Assembly (NCBI RefSeq): GCF_000019905.1
Contig: NC_010556.1
Location: 832,001 to 896,000 of the forward strand
DNA: 64,000 nt
Source of the DNA: Exiguobacterium artemiae 255-15
Lineage (GTDB): Bacteria; Bacillota; Bacilli; Exiguobacteriales; Exiguobacteriaceae
Direction of reading: 5' to 3'
The position numbers were made by a program, and so were the translations under genes. The notes beneath the pieces are model-generated. The model searched no databases. It was not told where the DNA came from and was given only the letters and a program-made list of their open reading frames with translations. Positions 7,294 through 60,885 of this stretch are shown piece after piece. Each line of letters begins with the position of its first letter. Position 1 is the first letter of the stretch.

Positions 7294-8271
7294 GTGTCAA
7301 AACGATTCAGTTTGTCCATGCTGGCCTTAACCATCGGTCTGGCGGGTTGCGGCAGTATCATCGATCATCCTGAACAAGCAGTGAAGGAGCGCCGGAAAAT
7401 GGCAGTCGTCTTATCCGATGTCGGATTAGGGGATCAGTCGTTCAGCGATGCTGCCATGAGCGGTATGTCTTTACTACGTGAAAAAGAAGACTGGTTCATT
7501 GATTATAGAGAATTAAGTGAAACAAAGTCATATGAAACGGCATTTGCCACGTTAGCGAAACAACATCCGACCGTTGTCGTCGGTCTTGGGTTTATGGGAC
7601 AGGCGGACTTGGAAAAAGTCGCTAAACAGTATCCAAAACAGCAGTTTGCATTAATTGATGCCGTGTCGGAACTACCGAATGTATTATCCGTCACATTTAA
7701 AGAAGATGAAGGCAGTTATCTGGCGGGGGCAGCGGCAGCAATCCAATCCGACAGTGATACGATTGGTTTTATCGGCGGCATGAAATCACCGCTCATTGAG
7801 AAGTTTGAAAAAGGCTACCGTGCCGGTGCAACAGCCATTAATCCGGACATCCGTGTCCTTGTCGATTATGCAGAAGACTTTGCGGCGCCGGATAAAGGAC
7901 GTGAGCTCGCTAATGCCCAAATGAAAAAAGAGGCGGATGTCTTATACGCGGCAGCAGGACTGACCGGCAGTGGCGTTCTTGAGGCAGCAGAAGAAAAAGG
8001 AAACAAGGCGATTGGTGTCGACAGCGATCAAACGGCGATTGCACCGGACGCAGTCATGACATCGATGTTAAAACAGGTCGATCTTGCGATTACGAAAATT
8101 GGCGACAGCGTCAAAGCACCGGGTCTTCAAGCCGGTCAAATCGTATTAGGCGTGAAAGACGGAGCGATTCAACTCGCGCCGATTCGTAATACCAACTTTA
8201 CAGAAAAAGATTTACAACGACTCGAACAATTGAAACAAGACATACTGGAAGGCAAGGTGAAGGTCCAATGA
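7294..8271 (+). CDS. BMP-family (Med-like) substrate-binding lipoprotein
   Basis: 325-residue extracytoplasmic lipoprotein of the basic membrane protein family (PnrA/TmpC/Med type). The signal peptide [20 protein letters not shown] ends in a lipobox LAGC, so it should be lipidated on that cysteine. The periplasmic-binding fold shows [21 protein letters not shown] near the N-terminus, then [21 protein letters not shown] and [18 protein letters not shown], which are the usual nucleoside-binding family signatures. The GTG at 7294 is chosen for the GGAAGGAAG ribosome site just upstream; the longer frame from 7222 would bury the signal peptide. No ABC permease or ATPase is adjacent. Instead it overlaps a chemoreceptor gene by 4 bases. 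Confidence 0.88.
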
Positions 8272-9917
8272 CGTTACGACAACGATTTTTGGTTTCGACA
8301 CTCGTGACGATTGTCAGTGTTGTCGCCTTAATGGGCTGGACGTTATTTGAACTGCGTCAAATCCAGTCCTACAACGAGGATTACGGAAAGCAACTGGTCG
8401 AGATTTCAGAACTGGAGACTAAGTTACTGTATGAGCAGGCAGCCTGGAACCGGTTAGCGAGTCAGCCTTCAGAAAATCAAAAAGAACAAGCACTTGCCTT
8501 AAGTAAAAAAAATGAAAAAGCTCTTGATTCCTTACAAAAAACGTATTTGATTGATCGGTTTAAACCGGATTTGAATCGTGCCAAAATGAAATATACGACT
8601 TTGGCGGAGAAACGGACAACTTTATTAAATGAGCTTGATCCAATTGCAATCCGCTCCCACGCAGCCCAGGTGGAAGGAGTATTAAGCGATTTATATACGT
8701 TACATACGAAAAATGGTGAATTTTACGATGTATTGCAACAGGAAGCAAAAGATAAGACATTGAATCTGACGCGCTCGGTTTTAATCGCGACATTCATTCT
8801 TCTGATTGCATTAGCACTCTATAACTGGTACTTTGCGCGGAGCATCACCCGTCCGATCAGCCGGGTCGTTCAGACGGCGGAACAGATTTCGCAAGGGGAT
8901 GTCTCACAACAACTACAAATCTCGGGACGGACGGATGAAATCGGTCGTCTCGAGTCAGCGATTGCCCAGATGCAAGGAACATTGCATGGTGTCATCGGAA
9001 CGATCAGTCAGACATCGACGACCATCAATCAGATGAGCGAACAGGCGACAGCTGAAAATGCCAATATCGTCGAAGTATCAGGCAACATGACACATGCCAT
9101 CAATGAAATGGCCAGTGGGACACAAACTGTCTCGGATGATTTGCAAACGACAGTCAGTACCATTACGGATATGAGCACATTGTTTGAACAAAGCGAACAA
9201 CGGGCGCAACAAGCATTGAGTCAAGGTCAACTGGCGGATACGACGATGGGGAAAAGTGCAACCATCATGCAGGAACAAGCGGAATCACTGGCGGCAGCGA
9301 CACTTCAAAATCAGGAACTCGGTCGCAAGCTAGCCGGATTCTTACAACAAACCCAGCAAATCGAACAGATGGCGCAACTTGTCTCAAGTGTCTCGGCGCA
9401 AACGAATTTACTGTCATTAAACGCGGCCATCGAAGCGGCTCGGGCAGGAGAAGCAGGACGTGGTTTTGCCGTCGTGGCGAGTGAAGTGAAGAAGTTAGCG
9501 GACGAAACCCATCAAGCGACGCGTTCCATCTTTTCACTCGTTCGTTCGATTCGGGCAGACGGAGCGATTTTGCAGGAAGCATTGCTTCAATCTGAAAAGG
9601 AGCAAGCACATCAGGTTCAAAACTTTGCTGAGGTGACATCGTCATTCGAGGAAACCCGTGGTCACGTGACGGATGTAACGGAAGCCGTCCAGTTCATGAC
9701 GACACAGTTACTTCAGTCAAAAGACCAGGCGAATCAGGTCGTAAATCAAGTCAGCTCAGTCAGTGGCGTGATGGAAGAATTAGCCGCCGGGAACGAAGAA
9801 GTGGCGGCGTCGATGCGCGATCAGCAAGCATCATTCGAACAAATTCATCAACTGATGCTGGAACTGGAACAAACAACGACTTCACTGGATCAACAAACCA
9901 GCCAGTTTAAACTGTAA
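8268..9917 (+). CDS. Methyl-accepting chemotaxis protein
   Basis: 549-residue transmembrane chemoreceptor. TM1 is at about residues 8-28. An extracellular mostly helical four-helix-bundle-like sensor (about 30-165) is followed by TM2 (about 168-188), HAMP ([25 protein letters not shown]) and a long cytoplasmic coiled coil. The signalling tip [35 protein letters not shown] sits near residues 376-410. The ATG overlaps the lipoprotein stop (ATGA), so the two are translationally coupled. The small helical ectodomain and the coupled binding protein suggest indirect sensing through the lipoprotein (inference). No CheA/CheW gene is nearby. Confidence 0.95.
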
Positions 9918-9931
9918 TATGAACAAACAGC

Positions 9932-9971
9932 AAAACCCCCTCAGCGAGTCAGTCCGTTGAGGGGGTTTTCG
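9932..9971. terminator. Bidirectional terminator between chemoreceptor and M23 peptidase genes
   Basis: AAAACCCCCTCA pairs perfectly with TGAGGGGGTTTT around a 14-base loop. A/T runs on both sides let it serve both convergent genes. Confidence 0.9.
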
Positions 9972-9981
9972 TCAAGTATGC

Positions 9982-11238
9982 TTAGAAGAAGTCACTTGGA
10001 TTCAATTCGTTTGTCCGGCCGTTGGCATTATACTGATACCCACCGTCATGAATCTCAAAGTGAAGGTGGGGACCGGTTGAGTTTCCGGTACTGCCAAGGT
10101 TACCGATTTGTTGTCCCTGTTTCACCTGTTGACCTTGTTTGACGGTCAGAGAATTCATATGCGCATAAACGGTCGTATACGTTTTTCCACCGATGTTGTG
10201 CGAGAGATAGACGTGATTACCGTAAGGCCCGCCGGAGCTTGCCAGGATGACGGTTCCGCTTGCGGAAGCAACGACCGGGGAGTTCAGTGGTCCGGCAAAG
10301 TCAATCCCGTTATGGTACGCGTATCCGTTACTTCCACTGGCAGCGCCCATTCCTTGTGAAATGGAACCAGCAGCCGGTTTGATGAACTTGCCTGTCGCTT
10401 TTGAAAGGACTTTTGTGCTTGCTTTTGTAACAGAAGCAGGTTGCGCCGATTGCGCGGCTGCTTGTTTTTCGGCTAATCGTGCAGCTCGAGCGGCTGAACG
10501 GGCAGCAGCTTCCTGCGCCTTCAGTTGAGCGGCAGCATCTTTTAAGCTCAAGATGTTAGTTTCGATGGAACGTTTTTCTGATTTTAATCGATTCAGTAAG
10601 GCCGTTCGTTTAATCTTTTCTGCTTTTAATTCACGCTGTTTCTTTTTTAGAAGAGTACGATCCTCAACCAAATCAATACGTGTTTGTTTCAATTCTTTTT
10701 GAGCCAGTGCCAATTGATGTTTGTTTTGTTCGTAATCTTTTAATAAAGAAGCATCGCTTTCGGCAATCGTATTAAAAGCATTAAAACGGCTGATCATATC
10801 TCCGACATCTTTAGCGCCAAAAACAGCCTCGAGAAATGGATCGTCATCTGCTTTTGCTTGTCGGACAGCTAAACGATCTCCGAGCATTTTTTCCTGCTTG
10901 CTGATTTTTTCGCGTAAGGCATCGATTTTTTGTTCCAATCGTTTAATCTGCTGACGGTTTTGATCAATTTTTTGTTGGTTTTCGACGACCTGCAACGTCA
11001 GTCCATTAATCTGTTGATCGAGCGCATAGACTTTTTGCTGTGCTTTGGACAGTTGGGTGGTCTTTTTCGAGAGGGCTTGCTTTTGCTTGGACTGCTGTTG
11101 TTGATTTTGCTGCTGTTTTTCCTTATAAGAACTTGCTGCACCGACGGGGTGGACAAGTGGGCTGAAAAGTAAGGTCATCGTCATCAGTGAGAGACCGAGT
11201 GTTTGTTTTAAAGATGATTTCATAGTTGAATCAATCAT
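9982..11238 (-). CDS. Secreted murein hydrolase activator / M23 endopeptidase (EnvC-like)
   Basis: 418 residues. A Sec signal peptide (MKSSLKQTLGLSLMTMTLLFSP..GAAS) is followed by a very long coiled coil (about 40-265), rich in Q/K at its start, and a C-terminal LytM/M23 domain. The zinc-site motifs YHNGIDFAGP, YAHMNS and the HxH of GPHLHFEIHDGG are all present, so the peptidase should be catalytically competent. The domain order matches EnvC/NlpD-like or CwlO-associated cell-separation factors; the exact role is not known. The first ATG has an AGGAAGG ribosome site. Transcribed toward the chemoreceptor, sharing its terminator. Confidence 0.9.
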   Translation of the reverse strand: MIDSTMKSSLKQTLGLSLMTMTLLFSPLVHPVGAASSYKEKQQQNQQQQSKQKQALSKKTTQLSKAQQKVYALDQQINGLTLQVVENQQKIDQNRQQIKRLEQKIDALREKISKQEKMLGDRLAVRQAKADDDPFLEAVFGAKDVGDMISRFNAFNTIAESDASLLKDYEQNKHQLALAQKELKQTRIDLVEDRTLLKKKQRELKAEKIKRTALLNRLKSEKRSIETNILSLKDAAAQLKAQEAAARSAARAARLAEKQAAAQSAQPASVTKASTKVLSKATGKFIKPAAGSISQGMGAASGSNGYAYHNGIDFAGPLNSPVVASASGTVILASSGGPYGNHVYLSHNIGGKTYTTVYAHMNSLTVKQGQQVKQGQQIGNLGSTGNSTGPHLHFEIHDGGYQYNANGRTNELNPSDFF

Positions 11239-55579: not shown

Positions 55580-55622
55580 AAAAAGATTCCCGACCGTCAA
55601 ATACGGTCGGGAATCTTTTTTT
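55579..55622. terminator. Bidirectional terminator between the Nif3-like gene and ispH
   Basis: GATTCCCGACCGT pairs with ACGGTCGGGAATC around CAAAT, flanked by A and T runs. It overlaps the ends of both convergent genes. Confidence 0.93.
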
Positions 55623-56568
55623 AAAGAATTTTAACTTTTGGTAAGATACGGCGCAGTTCGAGGAATGGCGTCTTATCATGTGTGCTGATATCGGCAGGAT
55701 CATACTGTTGTAAGAAGTCGATGACTTTTTTAGTGATCGGCGTCGGCGTTGAAGCACCAGACGTTACACCGACCTGGTTGACTCCGTCGAGCCACGATAG
55801 ATCGAGTTCCGTTAAATCACCGATCCGGTGAGCCGGCGTTGCGGCAATATCGAATGAAACTTGTGCCAAGCGATTCGAGTTGTTGGAACGCGGATCGCCG
55901 ACGACGATGACGAGATCGCAATCACCGGCTTGTTCGGCAACAGCTTCCTGCCGGACTTGCGTCGCATTACAAATTTCATTGTGTACTTCGACGTGCGGAT
56001 ACTTTTTACGGACGTGTTCCATTAATGCCTGAACGTCCCATTGGCTCATCGTCGTTTGGTTCGTCACGATGATTTTTTTGTCGGCCAGGTGAGCCGGCAA
56101 CGCTTCGATGTCTTCGACTTTTTCAATCAAGTGAACATGTTCCGGCGCGACACCAACGGCGCCTTCCGGTTCCGGGTGACCGTGTTTGCCGACATAAATG
56201 ACTTCATAATCATCCGCGACGACACTGCGGATCAAGTCATGTGTCCGGGTGACGTCCGGACACGTCGCATCGACGACAGTCAGTTTTTTCTCGGCAGCGC
56301 GGGCATAGACAGCCGGCGAAATCCCGTGTGCTGTAAAGATGACGGTTCCTTCTTTGATGGTTTCGAGTGCTTCCAAGCGGTCGGGACCGTCTACGGTCAA
56401 CACACCCATCCGTTCGAATTCACGCGTGACGTGTGCATTATGGACAATCATGCCCAGGATATGAATTGGTCGTGGCAAGTTATCGTTTAGTGCAGCTTGT
56501 TGAGCAAGCTTCATTGCATCAACAACACCGTAACAATAACCACGGGGACTGATTTTTTTAACAAGCAT
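55621..56568 (-). CDS. ispH: 4-hydroxy-3-methylbut-2-enyl diphosphate reductase
   Basis: 315 residues; last step of the MEP isoprenoid pathway, making IPP and DMAPP. The three cysteine ligands of the Fe-S cluster are in [10 protein letters not shown] (near 12), [10 protein letters not shown] (near 103) and [10 protein letters not shown] (near 200). Also [10 protein letters not shown] and [15 protein letters not shown] rather than GFCAGV is the form seen in Bacillus YqfP. AAGGAGAA ribosome site on the minus strand. Confidence 0.95.
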
Positions 56569-56712
56569 AGTCTAAATTCTCCTTTTGTATGGAAAGAATG
56601 ATTATTTAGAGTGTACCATTGATTCAAGTTGAATGAAAATAGAGGAGTCTGCCGAAAGAGAATATCATGATATACTAATTGAGTTGTCTAGAAATAAGGG
56701 AGGGGTGAAAAG

Positions 56713-58476
56713 ATGGAGACGAAAAAGATGATGCGGTCCTATTTTTTCCAAATCACGGCTGTTTTATTTATTATTATTTGTCTTGTCATCTCGGCACTTG
56801 CCTTTACAGCAGACCGTGTCACGATTTCGCGAGTCGAACAGCAGACAGAAAAACAGAGTGAAAAAAGTGTCGAAGTCTCAAGTAATGCATTACGAGACAG
56901 CGTCGGGAACTTACATGAAAAAATTATGAGCCTTCAATTAAATGTCACGAATATGGACAATCTTGATCGAGCCATCCGTGATACGAATTTGCTGGATATC
57001 GATACCGGATTTAAGAGTTTCTTTTATTATGACCGTAAAACGGATAAAATCACCTGGTTTTCGAGTGAAGACCGGCGTATTCCGGATGCGGATATTCGCC
57101 GGGATGATTCTTTTTCACAAGCTTTGACGAGCACGGATTTTCATATGAGTCCGCGGTATGACATAGCGAACGATTCTCTGACGTATATGTATGTTTCTGT
57201 TCGAAACGGCAATGAGCGGGTCGGGGTCTTCGGCGGCGGACTCAGTCTCATGAATTCCATCGTTTTCCGCAACTCACTGGAATCATTTGATGATGATACG
57301 ATGGCTTATTTATTCAACAGTCAGGGAGAGCCGCTCGCAACCTCGAAAAATCTTGTGACCGATCAAGAGCGTCTGTTGAGTCAAAGTGTGGTTGACCGGG
57401 CTTTTAAAAGTACAAAGCCATACGAAATCTTTAGTACGAATAAAGATATGTACTATTTCGCACGTGATTTGAAAGTGACGGATTGGAAGATATTAGTACG
57501 GACACCTCGGAGTGTCTTTTATGAACCGGTGTATACGACGCGGCAACAATATTTGGTCATTGCGGCACTCACGCTGGTCCTGAGTCTGATTGTCGGGTAT
57601 TTGATGTCCCGTCAACTGACCGCACCTCTATTGGAACTTGTTCAAAAAATCGAAAAAAGTACTACGCCTCAACCGATCACTTTGGAGCGATCCGGTTCCA
57701 ATGAAATCAAGACGTTGGTTTCCGCCTACAACGAGTATGCGCAACGGATGGAACATGCGCGGGTTGAACAGTTGAGTCAGCAACAGGTTATCTTACATCA
57801 GGAGAAACTGGCCTCACTCGGACAACTGGCCGCAGGAATTGCGCATGAAATCCGCAACCCGTTGACACCGGTCAAGATGGCGTTGCAACTGCTGTCGGAA
57901 GAAAAACAAAATAATCCGGATATGATGAATATCGCCTTGTCCGAACTGGACCGAGCCAATCAGTTGATCCAGACGATGCTCGATTTATCCAAAAATGATA
58001 AAACGACGCTGGCGATGGCACAGATTGATATGAAAAAAATGATGGAAAAGTTAACGTTTATCCTCGAATCGAAATCGCACCCTTACGAAGTGGACTGTAA
58101 GATTTATACACCGGCACATATGCCGCCGTTGTATGCTTCGGAAAACGGATTGTTGCAAGTGTTATCGAATTGTATCGGAAACGCACTGGATGCCGTCGAA
58201 TCAAAAGGAACGGACGGAATTTGTCACGTTCACCTTCATGTCTATCCGGATCAGTTTGTGTTTATCGTCCAGGATAATGGTGTCGGAATGGACGAATATC
58301 AGATTCAGATGCTCGGTCAGGCGTTCAATACGTCGAAGATTAATGGCAACGGGTTAGGGTTGTTCATGTCCAATCAAATCGTCCGTCAGCATAACGGGCG
58401 AATCGAAGTCGACAGCAAGATGGGCGTCGGTACGACCGTACAACTCTTTTTCCCGAGACGGGAGGAGCAGGCATGA
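56713..58476 (+). CDS. Sensor histidine kinase with extracellular Cache-like domain
   Basis: 587 residues. TM1 about 10-31; extracytoplasmic PDC/dCache-like sensor (about 35-275; FKSFFYYDRKTDKITWFSSEDRRIPD, YVSVRNGNERVGVFGGGLSL); TM2 about 278-298; HAMP; HisKA with the phospho-acceptor in IAHEIRNPLTPVKMALQLL (near 379); HATPase_c with N-box NCIGNALDAVE, G1 DNGVGMDEYQ and G2 NGNGLGLFMS. AGGGAGGGG ribosome site. Overlaps the next gene (ATGA). No response regulator gene is adjacent, so its partner is encoded elsewhere. Inserted between ispH and cshB relative to Bacillus order. Confidence 0.92.
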   Translation: METKKMMRSYFFQITAVLFIIICLVISALAFTADRVTISRVEQQTEKQSEKSVEVSSNALRDSVGNLHEKIMSLQLNVTNMDNLDRAIRDTNLLDIDTGFKSFFYYDRKTDKITWFSSEDRRIPDADIRRDDSFSQALTSTDFHMSPRYDIANDSLTYMYVSVRNGNERVGVFGGGLSLMNSIVFRNSLESFDDDTMAYLFNSQGEPLATSKNLVTDQERLLSQSVVDRAFKSTKPYEIFSTNKDMYYFARDLKVTDWKILVRTPRSVFYEPVYTTRQQYLVIAALTLVLSLIVGYLMSRQLTAPLLELVQKIEKSTTPQPITLERSGSNEIKTLVSAYNEYAQRMEHARVEQLSQQQVILHQEKLASLGQLAAGIAHEIRNPLTPVKMALQLLSEEKQNNPDMMNIALSELDRANQLIQTMLDLSKNDKTTLAMAQIDMKKMMEKLTFILESKSHPYEVDCKIYTPAHMPPLYASENGLLQVLSNCIGNALDAVESKGTDGICHVHLHVYPDQFVFIVQDNGVGMDEYQIQMLGQAFNTSKINGNGLGLFMSNQIVRQHNGRIEVDSKMGVGTTVQLFFPRREEQA

Positions 58477-59426
58477 GGTTCAATAAGTCCTGGTTGTTGG
58501 TCTTAATCATTTGGATTGCATCCGTCCTCGTCATTTCCAATCTATTTGTCCAAAAGGAAACCAGTCCTAAACGGAATATCGTTGGATTTACGATTGTTAA
58601 CGACAAACATGAATTTGCACAGCGGTTGATCAATGCCTTTAAAGCGGAAGCGAAAGCAAATAAATATGAAGCACTAGTAGCGACGTCACAAAATTCCCGA
58701 ATCAGTGAACGGGAACAGATTTTAGAGTTCGTTCATTTGAAGGTCGATGCCATCTTCATCACGACACTCGATGATGTTTATATCGGAAGTGCGATTGAAG
58801 AAGCTAAGAAAGCAGGGATTCCTGTATTTGCGATCGATCGCATGATTCGCTCGGATGCGGTCGTCAGTTCGATTACCTCCAATAATCAAATGATCGGAGA
58901 ACAACTGGCTTCCTATATTAAGAATGAGTTGATTAAGCAGACCGGTCGATCAACGGGGCGTATCGTTGAAATTACAGGTACGGCAAATGTCTATACGACA
59001 AACGAACGACACCGGGGATTCTTGAAAGGAATCGAAAATGAGCCGACACTTTCCATCGTCGATTCGGTCAGCGGAAACTACGATCCGGTCACATCCGAAC
59101 GTGTCATGCGGCAAGTAATTGACTCCGGAATTCCGTTTGATGCAGTCTACTGTCACAATGACGATATTGCGATGGGTGTCCTCGAAGCATTGAAAAAAGC
59201 AAAGATTTCCGGAAAAATAGTTGTCGGAATCGATGGGAATCGTGCTATATTAGAAGCTGTTGACATGAAATCGATGGACGCAACAGTCGTCCAGTCCGCT
59301 GAAGAGATGATGAAAGTCGCCTTCAGCGCGTTGAAGCTTCATACGAAAAACAAAAAAATTCCCGATCGTTTCTATACGTATTCATATTTGTATGACGGTA
59401 GTAGACCAATACCCATGTTGAACTAA
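58473..59426 (+). CDS. Membrane-anchored periplasmic-binding (ribose/LacI type) protein, sensor partner of the kinase
   Basis: 317 residues. A single uncleaved N-terminal helix (SWLLVLIIWIASVLVISNLF) with no lipobox cysteine, then a Peripla_BP_4 domain: IVGFTIVNDKHEFAQRLINAFKAEAKANKY, VDAIFITTLDD, GIPVFAIDRMIRSDAVVSSITSNNQMIGEQLASYI, TTNERHRGFLKGIE, DAVYCHNDDIAMGVLEALKKA, VVGIDGNRAILEAVDMKSMDATVVQ. These are the classical RbsB blocks. With no ABC genes nearby and a start inside the kinase stop, it most likely presents a sugar-like ligand to the kinase rather than importing it (inference). Confidence 0.88.
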   Translation: MRFNKSWLLVLIIWIASVLVISNLFVQKETSPKRNIVGFTIVNDKHEFAQRLINAFKAEAKANKYEALVATSQNSRISEREQILEFVHLKVDAIFITTLDDVYIGSAIEEAKKAGIPVFAIDRMIRSDAVVSSITSNNQMIGEQLASYIKNELIKQTGRSTGRIVEITGTANVYTTNERHRGFLKGIENEPTLSIVDSVSGNYDPVTSERVMRQVIDSGIPFDAVYCHNDDIAMGVLEALKKAKISGKIVVGIDGNRAILEAVDMKSMDATVVQSAEEMMKVAFSALKLHTKNKKIPDRFYTYSYLYDGSRPIPMLN

Positions 59427-59495
59427 AGAAATAGATGGTGAAGGCGGACGATTCGCCTTTAATTGTTAAAGAGTAGAGAAAGGATGGTGACAAAT

Positions 59496-60848
59496 ATGAA
59501 TGGATTCAGCCATTTCGATTTGCACCCGTTCGTCGTCGAAGCACTCGAAGACGCACGTATTAAAAAACCAACCGATATTCAATCCCGGATCATTCCGGCA
59601 GCGCTCAAAGGGCGGGATATCATTGGACAATCACAGACAGGGACAGGGAAAACATTATCGTTCCTCTTGCCGATCGTCCAAAATGTCAATCCGGAGCTTC
59701 AGGAAATGCAAGCCATCATCGTTGCACCAACGCGCGAACTGGCTTGGCAAATTCACGAGGAATTGAAATCGATCCTCGTCAAACAACCGGATTACATCAA
59801 GACAAGCCTGATCACAGGCGGCATGGACCGTGAACGTCAAATCGGCCGTGTCAAAGTCTCACCGCAAATCGTCATCGGAACACCGGGACGAATTTTGGAT
59901 CTCTTTAAAGAGCAAGCTTTGAAACCACACTTCGTCAAACACTACATCATCGATGAAGCGGATCAGATGCTTGATATGGGATTCTTGCCGGAAGTCGACC
60001 GGATTGCTCAAGCACTTCCTGAGAAGTTACAGATGATGGTCTTCTCTGCGACGATTCCGGAAAAACTGCAACCGTTCCTGAAAAAGTACATGAACAATCC
60101 GCGTTATGCACACGTCGATCCAAAACAACAGACGGCGAAAAAAATCGTTCATCATACGGTTCCGGTCAAACACCGCGATCGTTCTGATTTGACGTTGAAA
60201 CTGGCGAAAGCTCTTAATCCGTATATCTGTCTCGTCTTTACGAACACAAAAACGGAAGCAATCGAACTCGAAGCTCTCTTCCTTGAAGCGGGACTCAACG
60301 TCGGTTCGCTTCATGGTGACTTACCGGCCCGCCGTCGGAAACAAGCCATCAAAGAAATCAACGAAGCGAAATATCAGTACGTCATCGTAACGGATCTCGC
60401 TGCTCGTGGTATCGATATCTCAGGCGTTTCCCACGTCATCAACCACGGGATTCCGAAAGATCTCGACTTCTACGTTCACCGTGTCGGTCGGACGGGTCGT
60501 GTCGATCAGGACGGATTGGCTTACACTTTATTTGAAGATCACGAAAATGGTTCGATCAACCGTCTCGAAGACCGCGGCATCGAGTTCATCAACGTTGATG
60601 TCAAGAGTGGTCAAGTCAGCGAAGTGAAAGAACGCCGTCGTGCTAAACCACACATGAAGACAGCCGTTTCGAAAACAGCCCACAGCCGTTTATCCGGTGA
60701 AGCGGCAAAAGCGAAAAAACGTGTCAAACCAGGCTACAAAAAGAAACACCAATATAAACTGAAAGAAACAGCAAAACGCGAACGGATCAAGGAACAACGT
60801 GGAATCGGACGCGCTGAACGTAAAGCAAACGCAAGTAAAAACAAATAA
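59496..60848 (+). CDS. cshB: DEAD-box ATP-dependent RNA helicase CshB
   Basis: 450 residues. Q-motif [31 protein letters not shown], motif I SQTGTGKT, Ia APTRELAWQ, Ib [25 protein letters not shown], then [20 protein letters not shown] and HRVGRTGR. The C-terminal 75 residues are strongly basic ([15 protein letters not shown]), as in cold-shock helicase CshB. ATG at 59496 with AAAGGATGG ahead; an in-frame ATG at 59484 overlaps the ribosome site. Next to nfo, as in Bacillus. Confidence 0.95.
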
Positions 60849-60885
60849 TCCGTTTTCGGCGTTCAAGTTGAAGCTGAACGGTTTG

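Follow-up and report, generated by a model that had tools for sequence, protein, structure and literature searches.

Within the 64,000-nucleotide stretch of the Exiguobacterium artemiae 255-15 chromosome analysed here (the window), two genes on the forward strand form a compact unit: an orphan sensor histidine kinase gene at 56713..58476 (587 aa; recognised from the open reading frame list, Pfam, hydropathy and AlphaFold2, and present in 38 of 38 genomes of the family), and a gene at 58473..59426 for a membrane-anchored sugar-binding protein of the RbsB fold (SBP, 317 aa), whose ectodomain corresponds to PDB entry 3L6U. The two reading frames share 4 nt (ATGA), the SBP start lying inside the kinase stop just as an earlier note on this DNA had it, and that start is preceded by a ribosome-binding site, GGGAGGAG; translation of the SBP is predicted to be coupled to that of the kinase. 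The conserved neighbours, seen in the flanking gene order, are ispH upstream (55621..56568, reverse strand) and a cshB-like DEAD-box helicase gene downstream (59463..60851, forward strand), names that we take from the earlier note and from general knowledge. No receiver gene lies near the unit, the closest in this genome being 70 kb distant, and the open reading frames are as the note described them: a kinase and a membrane-tethered sugar-binding protein without a response regulator. The GC content of the unit is 0.43-0.45, compared to 0.475 for the whole window.

Upstream of the kinase, the alignment of the genus reveals a putative extended -10 element, TGATATACT (56668..56676, forward strand), which went unreported by a generic promoter scan; its TATACT core is retained across the genus alignment. 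The sequence TGCCGAA at 56650-56656 matches the Spo0A-box consensus, and autoregulation of the kinase through such a box was considered and rejected, as the box is confined to the four closest genomes and is probably a chance match. In the sister genus the region upstream of the kinase contains a strongly conserved block around AACATTGTTTCGAAAATACGAAAAGA (L180, 7830-7974, and its sister-genus equivalents), which precedes a TATAAT box and is a possible candidate for a regulator site.

The kinase has the architecture TM1 - dCache - TM2 - HAMP - HisKA - HATPase_c, all on the forward strand. Hydropathy places TM1 at residues 14-32 (56752..56808) and TM2 at residues 281-299 (57553..57609); between them, residues 33-275 (56809..57537) form an extracytoplasmic dCache sensor domain, assigned by AlphaFold2 and Foldseek/VIA. 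The HAMP linker (residues 297-347, 57601..57753) is a weak Pfam match below the gathering score (E 0.0054), and is followed by the HisKA dimerisation and phosphoacceptor domain (57817..57999, Pfam 4.8e-16), with the phosphoacceptor His378 in HEIRNPLTPVKMALQLL at 57844-57846, and by HATPase_c (residues 477-583, 58141..58461, Pfam 1.3e-22), in which the N, G1, F and G2 box residues are present. The catalytic motifs are invariant in the family alignment. Since the AlphaFold2 model of the full-length kinase was poor (pLDDT 61.7), a model of residues 1-346 built from 34 sequences was used instead (pLDDT 80.7); its structural matches are dCache sensor domains, among them the sensor of KinD (4jgr, Z 15.0, a score equalled by many chemoreceptor dCache domains), in line with the Cache-like domain surmised earlier. 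In the sister-genus orthologue, Pfam dCache_1 is matched at 9e-9, below the gathering score. The core combines a HEIRNPLT HisKA motif with an NtrB-like ATPase (DNGVGM, FNTSK..GNGLGL), and its best matches among solved structures are ZraS and sporulation kinase B. Orthology to KinD itself was rejected, with a score of 108.6 bits against model NF053867, where the cut-off is 775.

The SBP is tethered by an N-terminal transmembrane anchor (residues 8-26, 58494..58550, forward strand; hydropathy) without a lipobox cysteine, as had been claimed before; in the 23 family SBPs that were aligned, the first 45 residues are free of Cys. The anchor is followed by a Peripla_BP_4 domain (residues 37-295, 58581..59357, forward strand; Pfam 1.6e-47). 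PDB entry 3L6U, deposited as the periplasmic component of a sugar-transport system, is identical to the SBP across 282 matched residues; a literature search found no paper on this entry. When the SBP is aligned with E. coli RbsB and the known contact residues of the latter are mapped, D122, R123, R179, N229, D254 and Q274 fall on ribose contacts and are invariant among the aligned family SBPs, and three further contacts are altered (N13 to His, F16 to Ala, N64 to Thr). The ligand is thus likely to be sugar-like, judged from the sequence, and probably other than ribose.

The SBP shares the Peripla_BP_4 fold and the sugar-contact residues with the RbsB/CUT2-type binding proteins of ABC transporters, but differs from them in having neither a lipobox nor a permease in its locus. 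Of the related SBPs from outside the family, 20 were inspected, and every one combines a lipobox with a neighbouring RbsC permease; no permease or transporter lies beside the kinase-SBP unit in any of the 37 genomes in which the flanks were read. Strain 255-15 also encodes a separate RbsB, which shares the fold at ~30% identity; this protein alone of the two is a lipoprotein beside an RbsC permease (G000:C1:2344 kb). Service to a transporter, which the earlier note had named as grounds for giving up its view, finds no support in these loci, and the features of the protein indicate that the SBP is part of a sensor and not of a transporter.

The arrangement is constant. The order rpoD-cccA-trmK-nif3-ispH(-)-HK-SBP-cshB-nfo is identical in 37 of 37 Exiguobacteriaceae genomes, 19 of the genus and 18 of the sister genus, and in the remaining sister-genus genome (G055) the kinase and SBP genes also occupy adjacent positions. 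This conservation across two genera rules out a chance pairing. A search of 398 Bacilli genomes detected the kinase sensor half in 38, every one of them an Exiguobacteriaceae genome, and in no other. The unit contains no response regulator in any of the 37 genomes; it is regulator-free throughout this set, and the idea that a regulator was lost here yet kept in relatives can be dismissed. The position between ispH and cshB is likewise as the earlier note gave it, but its description of the genes as inserted there holds for the position only: because both genera have the unit at the same site and its GC content is ordinary, recent insertion or transfer is not supported, and the unit has long been fixed in the family and is not evidently a recent arrival.

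Sequence identity between the genera is about 44% for the kinase sensor half and 36-39% for the SBP, while it reaches 87% in DHp helix 1 and 71-75% in kinase residues 9-42, which comprise TM1 and the linker after it. The excess conservation around TM1, while no proof, would fit a contact with another membrane helix, for example the SBP anchor. The kinase reading frame is intact in 36 of the 37 genomes. In the one exception, G007 (L116, G007:C1:2464564-2483514, kinase region about 8225-10000), a frameshift within TM2 splits the kinase and leaves the SBP intact; this is presumably a mutation of the strain or an assembly error.

Strain 255-15 encodes 25 receivers and 23 HisKA kinases; 14 of the kinases lie near a receiver and nine are orphans, namely eight related kinases of the HELRTP type and the unit kinase, the sole one of the HEIRNP type. 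A search with an HE[x]RNP codon pattern matched the unit kinase in 38 of 38 family genomes; of the extra matches, 11 were read and proved to be short non-kinase ORFs rather than second Kin-type kinases (a few single matches fall outside that set). Among the nearest kinase cores outside the family in named genomes, none of the 52 from Bacillota has an adjacent receiver, whereas a receiver is adjacent or fused in 24 of 28 from other phyla; an RbsB-like SBP is found near none of these 80 cores. In an unrooted tree of kinase cores, the family kinases occupy a long branch of their own, with full support, and do not nest among the Bacillota orphans. Verified sporulation kinases are all orphans (PMC6136694).

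Nine related kinases of the HELRTP type lie at 380, 779, 1014, 1100, 1203, 1255, 2648, 2739 and 2862 kb of the chromosome (C1; L088-L100); eight have no receiver nearby, and the one at 779 kb adjoins a single-domain response regulator, with which the group could possibly form a many-to-one network. At 1031 kb (L014, G000:C1) one protein joins a receiver to a PP2C-like phosphatase domain and has no kinase gene beside it, which makes it a candidate partner for orphan kinases.

The components of the Spo0 phosphorelay are all at hand: Spo0F, Spo0B and Spo0A are each encoded in 38 of 38 family genomes. The Spo0F gene adjoins fba in all 30 loci checked, in both genera, and the best PDB match of the protein is B. 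subtilis Spo0F (83 bits, vs 60 for the best natural protein that is not a Spo0F); in strain 255-15 the Spo0B gene lies between rpmA and obg, and Spo0A passes the equivalog model TIGR02875. This agrees with a report on the non-sporulating E. sibiricum, which has spo0A, spo0B, kinA, kinB and a Spo0F homologue and lacks spoIIA and spoIIG (PMC2615787); missing sporulation genes are also listed in PMC3533761. Two single-strain defects were seen: in G008, spo0B (L230, G008:C7:957882-958364) has an in-frame TAA seven residues past the phosphoacceptor histidine, and in G002, spo0A (L285, G002:C1:522900-525400) is broken by an insertion with two IS3-like transposase ORFs, in a genome where the kinase-SBP unit is intact.

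At the positions that determine kinase-receiver specificity, verified phosphorelay kinases read TxGFQL, with TAGFQL in KinA (PMC6136694 Table 1); the unit kinase reads TPMAQL, which departs from TxGFQL and matches KinA at 3 of 6 positions, and so leaves room for a receiver other than Spo0F. Within the family, the kinase residues vary between TPMAQL, TPMTQL and TPITQM, the last being that of the sister genus. Those of Spo0F have drifted as well (EGILQLD vs QGILEVD), and the two sets change together: the deep-branching G005 combines kinase TPITQM with Spo0F EGILQMD, and the sister genus combines TPITQM with QGIMQVD. As there are about three phylogenetic states, this covariation may be a coincidence.

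We suggest, with somewhat more confidence than doubt, that the kinase-SBP pair works as one sensor, modulated by the sugar-occupied SBP, whose kinase donates to Spo0F; the output step is inferred from genome content and kinase class. We infer the scheme at each of its stages, from ligand and SBP-kinase contact to Spo0F phosphotransfer and physiological output. The SBP, tethered by its N-terminal helix, would bind an extracellular sugar or sugar-like ligand and would touch the ectodomain of the kinase, its TM1 or both. A second ligand may act on the dCache domain, and it is plausible that the kinase receives two inputs, as proposed in the earlier note. SBP occupancy would then shift kinase activity through TM2, HAMP and HisKA, and the phosphoryl group would pass from the kinase to Spo0F, Spo0B and Spo0A. 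The unit would thereby be the KinA-E-class input of the Spo0 phosphorelay retained by a non-sporulating family, and it probably has no regulator of its own because it feeds this relay. Whether a complete Spo0F-Spo0B-Spo0A relay has here a single KinA-E-class input, namely a sensor of sugar and a dCache ligand made up of the tethered SBP and a KinD-like kinase, so that a sporulation switch has been kept as a carbon-source switch, seems to us a nearly even call, falling just short of one.

The strongest challenge to Spo0F as the partner comes from the other orphans of the genome. It is conceivable, though we consider it unlikely, that the unit kinase addresses a different orphan receiver, either the 777-kb single-domain regulator by a GAF-type kinase or the 1031-kb receiver-phosphatase, and that the eight other orphan kinases serve Spo0F; with SSGFEL-like residues, near the Kin consensus TAGFQL, these may be alternative Spo0F donors in this genome, while TPMAQL departs from that consensus and orphan receivers are indeed available. 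However, the 777-kb regulator adjoins a kinase of the HELRTP group, making that group its natural partner, and the HEIRNP/DNGVGM core common to the Bacillota orphan kinases occurs in this genome in the unit kinase alone. The A, Q and L at the end of TPMAQL are also found in NISAQL, read at these positions by a C. acetobutylicum kinase that acts on Spo0A directly (PMC6136694 Table 1), and the kinase might accordingly phosphorylate Spo0A directly in the manner of clostridia, bypassing Spo0F and Spo0B. We regard this as improbable: pathways of direct phosphorylation operate without Spo0F and Spo0B (PMC6136694), and unless they have a donor, it is difficult to see why both are retained in 38 of 38 genomes.

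Two further readings question the sensor itself. The preserved RbsB fold and sugar contacts would suit an SBP that works mainly in transport, or as a scavenger supplying some distant permease, and that overlaps the kinase incidentally; against this stand the missing permease in 37 genomes, the separate lipoprotein RbsB beside RbsC, and the contrast between related transport proteins, 20 of 20 with lipobox and permease, and the family SBPs, 0 of 23 with a lipobox cysteine, so that we give it very little weight. Least probable of all, in our view, is that the pair is a decaying remnant in which the SBP and the dCache domain have both degenerated. The breaks that might suggest decay (the G007 kinase frameshift, the G008 Spo0B stop and the G002 Spo0A insertion) are each found in a single strain, and they are set against strong conservation in both genera, catalytic and contact residues that do not vary, and a kinase ORF intact in all but one of the 37 genomes.

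Few phosphorelay kinases have a known signal, and the reason for which bacteria that do not sporulate retain the relay is unclear. If the kinase-SBP pair does feed Spo0F, a single KinA-E-class kinase together with an SBP of solved structure (3L6U) would make ligand, input and output each testable, and a non-spore-former would offer a relay free of KinA-E redundancy.

Compared with known systems, the unit has features of two classes. SBP-kinase-regulator three-component systems include XylFII-LytS, from which the unit differs in having a KinA-E/NtrB-like and not a LytS-like core. Others, as described in PMC7927077 and PMC10384115, are P. aeruginosa GltB/GtrS-GltR and CuaD of Ruminiclostridium cellulolyticum. 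In these systems, as in the unit, a gene for a sugar-type SBP lies next to that of a membrane histidine kinase, whose ectodomain there reads the SBP; they have a cognate response regulator, however, and the unit has none in 37 genomes. The three-component-like reading of the earlier note stands as to the adjacency of SBP and kinase, but the missing regulator is the normal state for kinases of the KinA-E type, and with all three relay proteins in the genome, a phosphorelay kinase of an unusual sort describes the unit better than a three-component system minus a part. KinA, KinB, KinC and KinE are likewise orphans with an HE[IV]RNPLT phosphoacceptor motif and an NtrB-like ATPase, but they have TxGFQ[LI] residues and PAS or multi-TM sensors, where the unit kinase has TPMAQL, a dCache domain and an SBP partner; it thus resembles phosphorelay kinases in orphan status, genome content and core motifs, and departs from them in specificity residues. 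Clo1313_1973 of Acetivibrio thermocellus, an orphan kinase predicted to have a periplasmic binding domain, influences sporulation (PMC11210211); its binding domain is fused to a kinase of another class, and its host forms spores. In B. subtilis, the dCache-bearing orphan kinase KinD of the phosphorelay depends on the lipoprotein Med, as summarised in PMC11210211 (citing Banse et al. 2011). It has the same orphan TM-dCache-HisKA-HATPase layout as the unit kinase and feeds Spo0F/Spo0A with the help of an extracytoplasmic accessory protein; the partner in the unit differs in being a TM-anchored SBP of the RbsB family that shares an operon with its kinase, and the host in being non-sporulating. 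Med itself is a binding-protein-like lipoprotein of the BMP family. Of the systems compared here, KinD is the nearest functional counterpart of the unit kinase.
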